DNA from: an uncultured Porphyromonadaceae bacterium
Lineage (GTDB): Bacteria > Bacteroidota > Bacteroidia > Bacteroidales > Muribaculaceae
Direction: 5' to 3'
NCBI GenBank assembly: GCA_947573485.1
Contig: CANPGB010000016.1
Location: 1-64,000, forward strand
DNA length: 64,000 nt
Shown here: positions 29,615 to 64,000 of the stretch, piece after piece
How positions within the stretch are numbered: position 1 is the first letter of the stretch
How the letters are laid out: every line of letters begins with the position of its first letter
Notes under the pieces: generated by a model
Told to the model about the DNA's origin: nothing
Seen by the model: the letters and a program-made list of their open reading frames with translations, nothing else
Database searches by the model: none
Position numbers and translations under genes: made by a program

Positions 29615-30264
29615 AAGACCTTAAAGCCATACGCGGCGCCCGACTGCTCAGAGAAATGGTGGCCGAAGGCGAGCACGTGAGGCAAGACTTCAAATTCGCG
29701 ATTTCAGACGCCCGCAAGATTGCCCGCTCGCTCTCTGCCTTCGCCAACAACCAAGGCGGCCGTCTGCTCATAGGCGTCAAAGACAACGGCGTGATAGCCG
29801 GTGTGCGCAACGAAGAAGACGTGTACGTCGTCGAGCAGGCAGCCGAGCGCTACTGCACGCCTCCGCAGCACGTGGAGTTCAAAGCCTACCGCCTCGACGC
29901 CGGCATCTGCGTTATTGTCGCCGAAATCGAAGCCTCGCCCGTGCGCCCGGTGGCAGTGTTGGAGAAAGACGGCACCCGGCGCGCCTACTTCCGTGTGGCT
30001 GACGAGAACATCGCCGCCCACCCGCTCATGGAGCGCGCATGGCGCATGGCTGCCGACGACACCGTGCCTCCCCTCACCGACCGCCACTATGCCCTCGCTT
30101 CGCTATTCGACGAGCCCGGCACGCGCCTCGACGAGCGCACCATAGCCACCCGCCTCCACATATCGCTGGCCGAGGCCGAAGCCCTGGTGGCGCGCCTCGC
30201 CGCCGCCGGAATCATTACTTTCGCTTTCGACGGCACCCGCTTCCTTCCGGCCTCCTTGCCGTGA
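29611..30264 (+). CDS. AlbA_2 (Schlafen-like) putative DNA-binding domain protein with C-terminal winged-helix region
   Basis: EGEHVRQDFKFAISDARKIARSLSAFANNQGGRLLIGVKDNGVIAGV. Confidence 0.8.
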   Translation: MKDLKAIRGARLLREMVAEGEHVRQDFKFAISDARKIARSLSAFANNQGGRLLIGVKDNGVIAGVRNEEDVYVVEQAAERYCTPPQHVEFKAYRLDAGICVIVAEIEASPVRPVAVLEKDGTRRAYFRVADENIAAHPLMERAWRMAADDTVPPLTDRHYALASLFDEPGTRLDERTIATRLHISLAEAEALVARLAAAGIITFAFDGTRFLPASLP

Positions 30265-30302
30265 TACAATAATAATCAATTGGCGCCTCCTTGCCGTGAA
30301 AA

Positions 30303-31010
30303 GCGTCTGCAAGACGCTGATTCATCTCATAACCCCGTACGCCGAAGCTCTTGCGGAGGCGTGCGGGGTTAGCTATGCCCTCACGGGTGGCGTCCGCATG
30401 GACGCCGATTAAAATTTGCGTCCTAAGCTATTTCTTATTACTTTTGTACATGAGTCACACGTCACTGACATATCACATTGTATTCGGCACTTGGTGTCGA
30501 TTCCCGGCGATTGTAGAAGAGCACGAGAGAGAGCTTTATAAGTTTATTCATACCTTCTCAACCGAGCGCGAAATCGTGATACGGCGAATAGGAGGAATGC
30601 CCGACCATATACATATTTTATGTGATATACCGGCAAAGATAGCGCTTGCCGACTTTGTGAAGTCACTGAAATCAGAGTCAAGCAAGTTCATGCGGGTGAA
30701 TCCACACTTCTCGAATTGGAAGAGCTGGGCAGAGGGCTATGGTGCTTTTACCGTAGATTCGTCGCTTCGAGAAACAAGAAAACTCTATATAATGAATCAA
30801 AAACAGCATCATCGCGTTCTATCTTTTGAAGATGAATATAGCTGTTTATTAAAAGAAGCCGGAGTAGAATTTTCCGGATTCGAACATTAGCAAACGTTCT
30901 TAATCAGCGTCCTGCCGGACGCACTCCCGAGCGCCGGGCACTACCCCTGCACGCCTACGCCAAGGCTTCGGCGTACAGGGTTACGAGATGAATCAGCGTC
31001 TTTCAGACGC
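30303..31010. mobile_element. putative RAYT/IS200-like element with nested inverted hairpins
   Basis: Hairpins A1 30303-30317, B1 30331-30370, A2 30389-30406, A3 30907-30922, B2 30945-30980, A4 30996-31010 placed symmetrically around a Y1 transposase gene; 30303-30335 and the reverse complement of 30978-31010 match at about 31/33 positions. Confidence 0.75.
30450..30890 (+). CDS. Y1 (HUH) transposase, REP-associated tyrosine transposase / IS200-like
   Basis: 146 aa; GGMPDHIHILCDIP HUH motif and candidate catalytic Tyr in KLYIMNQKQHH. Confidence 0.9.
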   Translation: MSHTSLTYHIVFGTWCRFPAIVEEHERELYKFIHTFSTEREIVIRRIGGMPDHIHILCDIPAKIALADFVKSLKSESSKFMRVNPHFSNWKSWAEGYGAFTVDSSLRETRKLYIMNQKQHHRVLSFEDEYSCLLKEAGVEFSGFEH

Positions 31011-59471: not shown

Positions 59472-62312
59472 ATGAAAAAACTGATTTTGCGCGGCATAGC
59501 AGCAGTGATAGCTGTGACAGCCGCATGGGCACCTGTAAAAGCTCAGGAGCCCGGGCAGATTCCGAGCCTCCCGCTCGACCCGGAAATCCGCACAGGCGTG
59601 CTTGACAATGGCATGACTTATTACGTCCGCCACAACGACACCCCCAAGGGCCAGGCCGATTTCTACATTGCCCAGAAAGTAGGTTCTATCCTTGAAGAAG
59701 ACCACCAGCGCGGTCTCGCCCACTTCCTCGAACACATGTGCTTCAATGGTACACAGAATTTCCCCGGCAAAGGCATCATCAACTGGCTTGAGACCAAAGG
59801 TGTGAAATTCGGCCAGAACCTCAACGCCTACACCGGCGTCGACGAGACCGTTTACAATATCTCGAACGTGCCCTGCGCCTCCAAAGCCGTGCAGGACTCC
59901 TGCCTCCTCATTCTCCACGACTGGTCGTGCGCCCTCACCCTCGACCCCGCTGAAATCGATGCCGAGCGCGGCGTTATCCACGAAGAGTGGCGCCAGAGCA
60001 TGGCCGGTCAGATGCGAGTTATCGAGCAGCTCCTCCCCACAATGTACCCCGACAGCCGCTACGGCTACCGCCTCCCCATTGGCACAATGGAGGTTGTCGA
60101 CAACTTCCCCCCGCAGGCGATCATCGACTACTACCACACATGGTATCGCCCCGACCAGCAGGGCATTATCGTAGTAGGCGACATCGATCCCGAATACATC
60201 GAGGGTAAAATCAAAGAGATGTTCTCGCCCATACCCATGCCCGAGAACGCACGCGAGCGCGAATACTTCGAGGTGGAGGAAACTCCCGGCACTATCTTCG
60301 CCCTTGGCGCCGACAAAGAAATCAAGTCGGCAGGCATAGAGATGCTCTTCAAGACAAACGCCATGAAGCTCCCCAAAGAGTACCGCAACACTGCCGCACA
60401 CTTCATGACCGAATACATGCGCCGCATGATTACGTCGATGCTCAACAACCGCCTTGCCGACCTCGCAAGCAAGCCCGAAACCGAATATGCACGTGCACGC
60501 GTGTCGATCGGCGACTACTTCCTTGCCAAGACCACAGGCGCCCTCGACCTCGACGTCGTAGCCAAGGATACCGACGTGGTTCCCGCCTTCCAGCAGGCTT
60601 ACCGCGAGCTTCTCCGTGCCGCACGCGGAGGCTTCACCGTGGGTGAATACGAGCGCGCCCGCGCCGAACTCCTCTCGGGCGTTGAAAAAGAATACAACGA
60701 GCGCGACCACCGCCAGAACGAGACCTTCTCACGCGGCCTCGTGCGCACCTTTGTCGACGGCGTGCCCTTCACCGACATGGCCACCTACAAGGCTATGTAC
60801 GACCAAATGGCCAACATGCTCCCCCTCGAGCAGCTCAACACCGTTCTCCCCCAAATGATTACCGAGGACAACCGCGTTGTTCTCGCCCTCATCCCCGAGG
60901 CCGAAGGCTACACCCTCCCCACCGAGGAAGGCCTCACCGCCGCTATCGAGGCTGTTGAGGCCGAAGAACTCGAGCCCTATAAGGACGAGATGCGCACCGA
61001 CCCCCTCATTCCCTCGCTCCCCGCTCCCGGCACCATTGCATCTACCTCGCACAACGCCGAGTGGGACGCCACCGAGTACGTGCTCTCCAACGGCGTGAAA
61101 GTGCTCGTGAAGCGCACATCGTTCAAGCCCGGCGAAATCTTCTTCGGCGCAATTGCCCAGGGTAACGCCCTCGCCGACATCGACCCCGCAAAGGCTTCGT
61201 CGGTGAAATTCCTCCCCGTGGCAATGATGAACGAGGCTTACTACGACTACTCAAACTCCGACCTCAAGAAGTACATCCAGGGCAAGCAGATTGAAATCGG
61301 TCTCAGCGCCGACGGCTACACCCGCTCGCTCCAGGGCCAGACAGTAGCCAAAGACCTCCCCACCGCTATGGAGCTCATCTACTCTCTCTTCACAGGCTTC
61401 AACCTCAAAGAAGATGAGTTCGAGGCTCGCCGCAGCGCCATCGCAGGTATCATCGCCAACCAGGAGACCGACCCCCAGTTCGTGTTCCAGAAGAGCTTCC
61501 TCAGCGTGCTCTTCGGCTCGCCCATGCGCCAGGCCATGTCGCTCGAAGATGTGAAAGCCGCCAACCGTGAAGACATCATCGCCATGGTTCACAACATGAC
61601 CGCCAACGCCGCCGACTACCTCTTCGTGTTCACCGGCGACATCGACGATGCCTCTTTCATACCCCTCATGGAGCAGTACATCGCCACTCTCCCCGCCGAC
61701 GCTGCAAAAGCAACCCGCAACTACACCGTCAACAAGGGCTTCGAGTTTGTGACAGGCACCGAGACCAACACCTTCACTACCCCGATGCAGACCCCGCAGA
61801 CATGGGTGCTCATAATCCTCAACGGCGACATGCCCTACAATGCCGAGAACAAAGCCCTCACCGAGGCAGCCGCACAGGTTCTCTCGAAGCGTCTGCTCAA
61901 CAAGATCCGCGAGGAAATGGGCGCCGTTTACTCTATCGGTGCCGCAGGCATGATGACCCGCACAGGTGAAAACAACACTATCTTCCAGATCGGTTTCCCC
62001 ATGAAACCCGAGATGAAAGATGAGGCTCTCGCCGAAATCAAGAACATTATCTGGAGCATGCCCACAACAGTGACAGCCGAAGAGGTTGCACCCGCTGTAG
62101 AGTTCATGCAGAAAGACATCAAAGAAAAACTCGAGAAGAACGAAGAGTGGGCCGAGTCGATGACCGCCACCTCTATCAACGGCGTGCAGACCTTCCTCAA
62201 CACCGCCGACGTTCTCCCCGGCATCACCGCCGAGAAGGTTCAGAAATTCATGCAGGATATTATCAATCAGGGCAACTACCGCGTGATTGTAGTAGACCCC
62301 GAAACTAAATAA
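59472..62312 (+). CDS. M16 family metallopeptidase (pitrilysin-like)
   Basis: HFLEHMCFNGTQNFPGKGI (HxxEH) and duplicated M16 domains. Confidence 0.95.
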   Translation: MKKLILRGIAAVIAVTAAWAPVKAQEPGQIPSLPLDPEIRTGVLDNGMTYYVRHNDTPKGQADFYIAQKVGSILEEDHQRGLAHFLEHMCFNGTQNFPGKGIINWLETKGVKFGQNLNAYTGVDETVYNISNVPCASKAVQDSCLLILHDWSCALTLDPAEIDAERGVIHEEWRQSMAGQMRVIEQLLPTMYPDSRYGYRLPIGTMEVVDNFPPQAIIDYYHTWYRPDQQGIIVVGDIDPEYIEGKIKEMFSPIPMPENAREREYFEVEETPGTIFALGADKEIKSAGIEMLFKTNAMKLPKEYRNTAAHFMTEYMRRMITSMLNNRLADLASKPETEYARARVSIGDYFLAKTTGALDLDVVAKDTDVVPAFQQAYRELLRAARGGFTVGEYERARAELLSGVEKEYNERDHRQNETFSRGLVRTFVDGVPFTDMATYKAMYDQMANMLPLEQLNTVLPQMITEDNRVVLALIPEAEGYTLPTEEGLTAAIEAVEAEELEPYKDEMRTDPLIPSLPAPGTIASTSHNAEWDATEYVLSNGVKVLVKRTSFKPGEIFFGAIAQGNALADIDPAKASSVKFLPVAMMNEAYYDYSNSDLKKYIQGKQIEIGLSADGYTRSLQGQTVAKDLPTAMELIYSLFTGFNLKEDEFEARRSAIAGIIANQETDPQFVFQKSFLSVLFGSPMRQAMSLEDVKAANREDIIAMVHNMTANAADYLFVFTGDIDDASFIPLMEQYIATLPADAAKATRNYTVNKGFEFVTGTETNTFTTPMQTPQTWVLIILNGDMPYNAENKALTEAAAQVLSKRLLNKIREEMGAVYSIGAAGMMTRTGENNTIFQIGFPMKPEMKDEALAEIKNIIWSMPTTVTAEEVAPAVEFMQKDIKEKLEKNEEWAESMTATSINGVQTFLNTADVLPGITAEKVQKFMQDIINQGNYRVIVVDPETK

Positions 62313-62370: not shown

Positions 62371-62423
62371 TGTTTTCTCGTCCGAAACTCATGGCAGCCC
62401 GTACGGAAAGAGGCATCACTATG

Positions 62424-62796
62424 GCGTCCGCCAGGACGCTGATTAACCCGTAACCCCCACGCCAGGGCGTCCGGCAGGACGCTGATTAACCAGTAACCCC
62501 GTACGCCGAAGCTTTAGCGGAGGCGTGCGGGGCTGAAAGACACACAGGAAAGCGTCCGGCAGGACGCTGATTAAGGTGAGGCTCAACGCCTTACAATTTT
62601 AATCGGCGTCCATGCGGACGCCATGCCTTGTGGTATTGCTGACCCCGCACGCCTCCGCTAAAGCTTCGGCGTACGGGGTTACTGGATTAATCCGCGTCCT
62701 GACGGACGCGACTTCGCCGGTTTGCTATCCCGGGCACGCCTACGCCTGCGGCTTCGGCGTACCCGGTTACGAGATTAATCGGCGTCTTTCAGACGC
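62424..62796. repeat. REP-like hairpin array, head-to-head arranged; same A/B hairpins as the RAYT locus
   Basis: A hairpins at 62424-62439, 62467-62482, 62552-62567, 62605-62622, 62693-62710, 62782-62796; B hairpins at 62497-62532, 62643-62678, 62730-62766. B3 and B4 are exact 36-bp reverse complements. Confidence 0.88.
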
Positions 62797-62964: not shown

Positions 62965-64000
62965 TCAGCCCAGCGCCTGCAGCGAGGCGTTGAGAGTGGC
63001 GAGTTTGGCGTCGGCGTCGGCGAGTTTCTTTCGCTCGGCGGCGACTACAGCCTCGGGGGCGTGGCTTACGAAGCGCTCGTTGGAGAGCTTCTTCTCTACC
63101 GAAGCCTTGAAACCGTTGAGGTAGTCGATTTCCTTGGTGATGCGGGCACGCTCGGCTTCAACGTCGATGTTGGCGCTCTGGGGTATGTTGAACTCAAGGC
63201 TGCCCACGAGGAAGGAGTTTGCTGCGGGGTCTTTAGCGGCGTTCTCCTCAATTTTCTCTATGCCACCGAGGCGCTCAACCATAGGCTTGATTTCGGCGGG
63301 GATGGTGCCGAGCACGCGCAGGGTGAGCTGCTCGCGGGGCGAGATGTTGCGGCGGGCACGCACGGCGCGTATGCCGTTGATAATATCCTGAGCCTGCGCC
63401 ACGAGAGCGATGAGTTCTTTGTCGGGAGTACCGGCTTCGGGCATCGAGGCGTACATTATCGATTCGCCCTCGGCACGCTGTGCCAGGTGCTGCCAAAGCT
63501 CTTCGGTGATGAAGGGCATGAAGGGGTGCAGCAGGCGCAGGAGCTGGTCGAGGAAGTTCTTGGCCTCGGCCATTGTGCGGGCGTCGACAGGCGAGCCGTA
63601 GGCAGGCTTGATCATCTCAAGGTACCACGACGAGAAGTCGTCGCGGAAGAGGCGGTATACAGCCATGAGGGCCTCCGAGATGCGGAACTTGCTGAAGAGG
63701 TCGTCGACCTCGGCGACTGTGGCCGAGAGTGTGGCGCCGAACCAGCGGGCGGCGAGGGCGGCGAGAGCGGGCTGCTCGAGCTTGTCGTCGGTCTGCCAGC
63801 CCTGGATTAGGCGGAAAGAGTTCCAGATTTTATTGCAGAAGTTGCGGCCGAGCTCCACGAGCTTGTCGTCGTACATGATGTCGTTACCGGCGGGTGCGGC
63901 GAGCATGAGACCCATGCGCACGCCGTCGGCGCCGTAGTCGCGGATAAGGTCGAGGGGGTCGGGCGAGTTGCCGAGCATCTTGCTCATCTTGCGGCCTATG
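62965..64000 (-). CDS. valS: valyl-tRNA synthetase, C-terminal part (gene continues past the window end)
   Basis: Frame reads IGRKMSKMLGNSPDPLDLIRDYGADGVR (KMSKS-like); C-terminal coiled coil FNIPQSANIDVEAERARITKEIDYLNGF. Confidence 0.95.
   Translation of the reverse strand, partial: IGRKMSKMLGNSPDPLDLIRDYGADGVRMGLMLAAPAGNDIMYDDKLVELGRNFCNKIWNSFRLIQGWQTDDKLEQPALAALAARWFGATLSATVAEVDDLFSKFRISEALMAVYRLFRDDFSSWYLEMIKPAYGSPVDARTMAEAKNFLDQLLRLLHPFMPFITEELWQHLAQRAEGESIMYASMPEAGTPDKELIALVAQAQDIINGIRAVRARRNISPREQLTLRVLGTIPAEIKPMVERLGGIEKIEENAAKDPAANSFLVGSLEFNIPQSANIDVEAERARITKEIDYLNGFKASVEKKLSNERFVSHAPEAVVAAERKKLADADAKLATLNASLQALG

Follow-up and report, generated by a model that had tools for sequence, protein, structure and literature searches.

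An IS200-class transposase gene between inverted copies of a dispersed compound hairpin repeat in a Muribaculaceae genome: a probable REPtron-like system

At positions 30303 to 31010 of the window, the 64,000-nucleotide stretch of an uncultured Muribaculaceae genome that we analyzed, a small transposase gene, tnpA, lies between mirrored groups of hairpins. An earlier note, made from the sequence alone, had read the locus as a RAYT/IS200-like transposase in a REP/BIME-type context. The question that the locus raises is to which class of single-strand transposase the protein belongs and whether the hairpins around its gene are the ends of an insertion sequence (IS) or members of a repeat family with a life of their own.

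The 146-amino-acid HUH/Y1 transposase between mirrored hairpin sets was confirmed: its reading frame matches Pfam PF01797 (Y1_Tnp) at 1.4e-22, and all six hairpins were located (Table 1). The description of three hairpins of two types per side holds in that the hairpins are real, but they are better seen as a ~110-nt unit, hairpin A-hairpin B-hairpin A, that occurs in two inverted copies bracketing tnpA and belongs to a dispersed family. The upstream flank and the reverse-complemented downstream flank agreed at 96/106 aligned positions (z = 47 against shuffles), and a repeat search returned an inverted repeat of 71 nt at 87% plus an inner one of 23 nt at 83%. Over 33 nt, the left end and the reverse complement of the right end agree at exactly 31/33 positions, the approximate figure given before, and the inner A hairpins do face the gene with GATTAA on the left and TTAATC on the right. 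The folding check that the note had proposed also bore it out. Folded as single strands, the left and right units gave z values of -6.3 and -3.4 on the plus strand and of -5.3 and -4.4 on the minus strand, and no shuffle reached the stability of either unit. Hairpin B, for which a stem of 36 to 40 bp had been claimed, is a hairpin of ~42 nt with a stem of ~14 bp; the earlier figure is roughly the length of the whole hairpin. In an Rfam scan, the neighboring tRNA alone exceeded a cut-off, with no known RNA family for the units, and no tnpB adjoins tnpA. Adjoining the left edge of the element is an exact 15-bp direct repeat, GCCTCCTTGCCGTGA, at 30250-30264 and 30285-30299, and the former copy contains the end of an AlbA/Schlafen-domain gene.

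Table 1. Positions in the window of the element, its parts, and a second site of the same repeat family
Feature	Position	Strand	Remarks
tnpA	30450-30890	+	146 aa, MSHTSLTYH...FEH; HUH/Y1 transposase, IS200 class, subclass 1.2 signature
Left A-B-A unit	30303-30412	+	One copy of the ~110-nt dispersed family (own genome: at least 72 DNA matches, at least 90 by covariance model)
Outer hairpin A, left unit	30303-30317	+	GCGTCTgcaAGACGC, then TGATTCATCTC
Hairpin B, left unit	30330-30371	+	5' foot (A)TAAC
Inner hairpin A, left unit	30389-30406	+	Followed by GATTAA
Right A-B-A unit, inverted	30900-31010	-	Matches reverse complement of left unit
Inner hairpin A, right unit	30907-30922	-	TTAATC just before the hairpin on the + strand
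Hairpin B, right unit	30945-30980	-	Foot GTAAC on the - strand
Outer hairpin A, right unit	30996-31010	-	Sharp right boundary of the element
Gene-less array of the A-B-A family	62401-62796		Tail-to-tail dimer 62467-62574 (+) / 62599-62709 (-) with a 24-bp spacer; extra and partial units; intergenic

Next, we consider the class of the protein. In the published division of these transposases, class 1 is defined by Y---Q and class 2 (TnpA-REP) by Y---NP, and subclass 1.2 has the signature Y---Q--HH, a DH[IV]H motif, a length of ~148 amino acids, and members in Cyanobacteria and Bacteroidetes (Quentin et al. 2018, PMC6006769). The window protein contains DH53-I-H55 and, in the sequence YIMNQKQHH, Y113-x3-Q117-x2-H120H121; the class 2 hallmark Y-x3-NP is absent, and Y-x3-Q stands in its place. 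The catalytic residues, the glutamine included, were invariant across 47 homologs, and the signature Y---Q--HH occurred in all 80 homologs from GTDB genomes and in 81/82 rows, the sole exception being the decayed second copy of the gene on contig C49. The protein passed the NCBIfam model for IS200/IS605 (NF033573; 67 bits, cut-off 55), and the closest entries in a PDB sequence search were the Deinococcus radiodurans and IS608 transposases. When its AlphaFold (AF2) model (pLDDT, 92.6) was compared with the PDB by Foldseek, structures of ISDra2, IS608, and IS200 were retrieved at E values of about 1e-8 to 1e-7, and the Escherichia coli RAYT 4er8 followed behind them at rank 30, at 9e-5. By motif, NCBIfam model, PDB sequence search, and fold, the window protein is a class 1 IS200-type TnpA of subclass 1.2. 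A RAYT in the strict sense is ruled out by the Y-x3-Q motif, by failure against the NCBIfam model of the REP-associated tyrosine transposase (REP_Tyr_transpos; 28 bits, cut-off 80), and by the ranking of folds. Thus, of the label RAYT/IS200-like, the HUH/Y1 enzyme and its REP/BIME-like setting stand, and the assignment to RAYTs, which are class 2 proteins with Y-x3-NP, does not.

A search of the window's own 2.88-Mb genome with the left flank alone, as the note had suggested, recovered at least 72 places, and a covariance model built from 40 copies, including units of five related genomes, recovered at least 90. The latter number is probably an undercount because units are interrupted by the ends of many contigs. 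Copies follow the consensus GCGTCCGNCAGGACGC-NGATTAATCCAGTAA-(B: CCCCGTACGCCG..AGC..GCGGAGGCGTGCGGGG)-ATAG-about 20 variable nt-GGCGTCCGNCAGGACGC-CGATTAA. In the unit alignment, 98.1% of cells were paired, and two-sided (compensatory) changes were observed in 16/24 consensus pairs (61 cells), compared with 5.4 pairs and 9.4 cells in shuffles and 2 to 4 pairs in slid structures; this covariation extends over both A hairpins and B.

The arrangement of the units is equally regular. Among the matches listed, neighboring units within 200 bp stood tail to tail, with their GATTAA ends facing, in 19 pairs and head to head in 3, and same-strand tandem neighbors were counted 24 times. Several tandem arrays share one A hairpin, which gives a period of ~88 nt. 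Seventeen tail-to-tail pairs have a 24- to 25-bp spacer, and these spacers are on average 75% identical, whereas the 25 nt outside them are only 26 to 33% alike, and no conserved target motif was found next to the dimers in these outer flanks. Inverted doublets, the mark of REPINs and BIMEs, are the main dispersed form in the window's genome. In two further pairs, a decayed piece of tnpA (143 or 189 nt) takes the place of the spacer, and two others, that of the window and that on C49, have a full-length tnpA there; the C49 gene is 84% alike to the window copy and contains an internal TAG. Because the spacers of dimers are sometimes tnpA, whole or decayed, the window element is one such pair in which the gene takes the spacer's place. 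Genome-wide, ~90 units face only two full-length copies of tnpA.

The same pairs could be read from the side of the gene. In that reading, the locus is an ordinary IS200/IS605-family IS whose inverted ends are unusual, mobility belongs or belonged to the tnpA element as a whole, and the units are MITE-like deletion derivatives of it. The class 1 protein, the two tnpA remnants between inverted units, and the resemblance of the dimers to an element in which a short spacer has replaced the gene are all consistent with this. However, tnpA has a very low copy number, and its two full copies differ far more than expected from subclass 1.1, whose mean identity is 99.4% (36.2% in subclass 1.2; PMC6006769). 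Furthermore, the known ends of such elements are hairpins of the same sense that are recognized on one strand, with no long inverted repeats, and the dimer spacer (GATGAGNNTCAACGCCTTACGTTT) is no obvious piece of tnpA. We therefore consider an ordinary IS unlikely and prefer the reading in which the pair of units is itself the recurring element.

The window holds a second, gene-less site of the family, an array that lies in the gap between two convergent genes, an M16-type peptidase gene that ends at 62312 and, on the minus strand at 62965-63987, a ValRS-like gene. Units were intergenic wherever their location was inspected. Elsewhere in the genome, at contig ends (G000:C29:41849-41901, G000:C39:1-43, and the start of G000:C48; loci L080, L074, and L095), units are cut at the foot of B and joined to a common sequence, AAATCTAGGACTTGCGCAAGGAAAAAGTGTTAAATTTTTAATT, and L036/L109 have similar junctions; AAATCTAGGACTTGCGCAAGGAAAAAGTGTTAAATTTTTAATT is probably a multicopy IS that targets hairpin B, like the REP-targeting ISs. 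The dimers at G000:C30:121-229 and G000:C36:6950-7059 have ~148 nt of outer flank in common (85%). This flank resembles a gene's 3' end, perhaps that of a restriction specificity subunit, and its presence at both sites probably reflects a segmental duplication after insertion.

To place the locus among its relatives, we used homologs sampled from one query alignment, in MAG assemblies with one genome per species. In a tree of 86 proteins, in which some branches are long and the details unsure, the window protein fell into a clade of 19 (support, 95/100) made up of Muribaculaceae, Duncaniella, and other Bacteroidales MAGs. Covariance-model units lay on both sides of tnpA in 19/19 clade members; L124, labeled as one sided since a unit lies 11 nt past the distance limit, is counted here as two sided. 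At G017:C9, an apparent exception among the close relatives, the covariance model found the units as well. Relatives with the gene but without hairpins, one of two outcomes that the note had named as fatal to its reading, were not encountered in this clade. Across Bacteroidales, 70/79 homolog loci had inverted flanks scoring at least 40, compared with 0/183 control windows from those loci. When flanks were mismatched, 33/632 wrong pairs also reached 40, which reflects repeat families common to related loci; the control windows therefore provide the cleaner comparison. Folding recovered the A-B-A order also for proteins only 40 to 45% identical (L140, L149, L155, L162, and others). The L162 unit occurs 34 times in the genome that carries it, chiefly in tail-to-tail arrangement, and the L126 unit has only 5 matches in its own; thus, not every homolog has a large repeat family. 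At L165, the flanks are single 49-nt near-perfect palindromes and not A-B-A, and the near-identical L169 probably has such flanks too.

Stems differ among these families, but a short motif beside them is often kept. At 80 loci, we examined the 5' foot of the hairpins in either flank for every possible tetranucleotide. TA[AG]C, the C of which is the first base of the stem, was present on both flanks in 42/80 loci, whereas the next class of equal degeneracy reached 5 and shuffled flanks reached 0. The contexts in these loci were GTAAC (38), ATAAC (24), TTAAC (12), GTAGC (7), and ATAGC (3), the preceding base being mostly G or A. Behind this foot stand 24 distinct 8-mer stem sequences, and it occurs in 8/16 protein clusters formed by single linkage at 60%. 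In REPs, the 5' GTAG is needed for the activity of E. coli TnpA-REP and sets the cleavage site in the Marinomonas REPtron (PMC8266576). The unpaired GT[AG]G foot of class 2 systems was not what we found; here the foot is TAAC or, less often, TAGC. TA[AG]C takes the position of the GTAG guide in REPs and, by analogy, is a candidate guide.

Across the family (297 genomes), we then compared the presence of units with that of the gene. Units occurred in 16/16 genomes with a close tnpA (profile score of at least 190 bits) and in 25/281 others (Fisher, 9e-16, with shared ancestry uncorrected). With the model-building genomes left out, they occurred in 11/11 genomes with a close tnpA (Fisher, 2e-11, likewise uncorrected for ancestry), and 14 control genomes contained zero units. 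The second fatal outcome, hairpins equally common without the gene, was thus not observed, although orphan families exist. Five genomes (G007, G120, G139, G239, and G290) have 9 to 73 matches to the units and no detected tnpA. G054 has at least 100 units and a close tnpA only as truncated pieces on contig C11, one squarely between inverted units (L227) and one beside a unit (L228). Its repeats are an orphaned family, and those examined are mostly single or tandem, unlike the paired units of the window's genome. Genomes with units but without tnpA indicate that the repeats can outlive the gene and can spread or persist independently of it. REPs, too, are known to outlive their tnpA gene.

Such orphans, together with intergenic positions and with compensatory changes that show selection on structure, would also suit units that are host elements (terminators, mRNA 3' structures, or binding sites) which selection maintains and recombination or a different transposase spreads, tnpA being an occasional passenger or parasite. 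We hold this to be quite improbable given the association with tnpA (its Fisher value not corrected for phylogeny), the inverted placement round tnpA at homolog loci but not in control windows, and a foot motif that is kept where stems differ. Transposition by an enzyme of another kind has to be weighed as well. In G004, G221, G253, and G277 (L235-L243), the outer flanks of dimers are conserved over 20 to 45 nt and are TGTGTCAAAA-like, and in G054 (L227-L230), those of dimers and units are conserved over 20 to 45 nt and are GAGGGTGTTG-like. These flanks in other genera may represent longer element ends, preferred target sites, or a different MITE. They would be expected if the units rode inside MITEs of a DDE transposon with ends beyond the outer A hairpins, but the window's genome has mostly unique outer flanks and a sharp boundary at the outer A, and we regard this origin as highly improbable.

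Taken together, these results favor, with a probability of roughly 0.7, a REPtron/REPIN-like system whose enzyme is a single-strand transposase of the IS200 class (subclass 1.2), with the A-B-A unit as the recognition substrate, the tail-to-tail pair as the recurring element, and tnpA in one of the spacers. Judging from work on IS608, ISDra2, and REPs, a TnpA dimer would bind the hairpins of single-stranded DNA, for example, on the lagging-strand template, and the (G/A)TAA left unpaired next to the B stem would be the guide, in the role that GTAG has in REPs. Tyr113 may cut at a short site, either within the linker between A and B or adjacent to A. A unit or dimer could then be excised, joined, and reinserted, and this would yield the dispersed dimers and the tandem arrays that share an A. 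For those arrays, the two same-sense A hairpins of each unit would allow excision and reinsertion at A, although ordinary recombination explains them too. Expressed from very few gene copies, TnpA would act in trans, and its gene may decay and leave orphan repeats. Against this reading, no movement was seen among the genomes compared, each of a different species, copies are 75 to 90% alike, and no clean empty site was found; ten congeners lack the element at the tRNA-Met/PyrK locus, but they also have a different gene upstream. In addition, TA[AG]C is present on both flanks in only about half of the loci.

We give even odds to a broader proposal, that REP-like systems have a second origin, in the IS200 class, and that Bacteroidales subclass 1.2 TnpAs each drive a cognate A-B-A family through a TA[AG]C foot, the counterpart of GTAG REPs and class 2 RAYTs. 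If true, it would show that single-strand transposases can be tamed more than once into sources of small dispersed repeats. The system described here breaks the published split, in which class 1 means an insertion sequence or no repeats and class 2 means REPs, and it gives subclass 1.2 cognate repeats and a candidate guide tetranucleotide, neither of which had been assigned before. It also accounts for part of the repetitive intergenic DNA, and for several contig ends, in these gut bacteria. With the foot motif and a compact enzyme in hand, guide-directed cleavage is open to direct test.

How, then, does the element compare with known systems? With REPtrons and their RAYTs, REPs, BIMEs, and REPINs, it shares a Y1 HUH gene placed between inverted copies of a genome-dispersed hairpin repeat, inverted doublets, few copies of tnpA against many repeats, and orphan repeats after gene loss. 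It differs in its class 1 protein (Y-x3-Q, not the Y-x3-NP of class 2), in a ~110-nt A-B-A compound where a REP is a single hairpin of 20 to 40 nt, and in a foot of TAAC (RTAA next to the stem), with GTAGC rare, rather than GT[AG]G. A CGTC-tagged REP was considered: the hairpins here contain GCGTC, and that family has Bacteroidetes members. It is ruled out, as GCGTC here lies inside the A stem and not as an unpaired tag beside an 8- to 9-bp stem, and GCGTC is not conserved across the homologs. With subclass 1.2, the protein shares DH[IV]H, Y---Q--HH, the length of ~148 amino acids, the occurrence in Bacteroidetes, and low copy number. However, for that subclass, REPs are given as "no" and typical terminal IS200 structures as generally absent (Quentin et al. 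2018, PMC6006769), whereas the genes here are placed within inverted A-B-A repeats, which are dispersed in the genomes examined. The catalytic core, the fold (Foldseek E of about 1e-8), the match to the NCBIfam IS200 model, and the class 1 Y1 enzyme are those of IS200/IS605 elements such as IS608 and ISDra2. Those elements have same-sense subterminal hairpins and multiple near-identical copies; here, there are inverted multihairpin flanks, no adjoining tnpB, two full and diverged gene copies (84%), and many gene-less units.

The note had known of no described Muribaculaceae element with this nested two-hairpin layout, and in the open-access literature on REPs, RAYTs, and REPtrons in Bacteroidales or Muribaculaceae, we likewise found no earlier description, yet one broad label does fit. 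TIRtrons, with their TIRYTs, are described as Y1 genes in long inverted repeats unrelated to GTAG REPs, as here, and some of those repeats form families with dimers and clusters, and some are doubly palindromic (Di Nocera et al. 2013, PMC3733652). The likeness lies in the layout of gene and repeats, and the text of PMC3733652 compared here contains no Bacteroidales case and no A-B-A/TAAC layout. Thus, the element is no member of the RAYT family, nor does it act as a standard IS200/IS605 IS would; a REPtron with REPINs describes how it works, and the broad label of a TIRtron fits as well.
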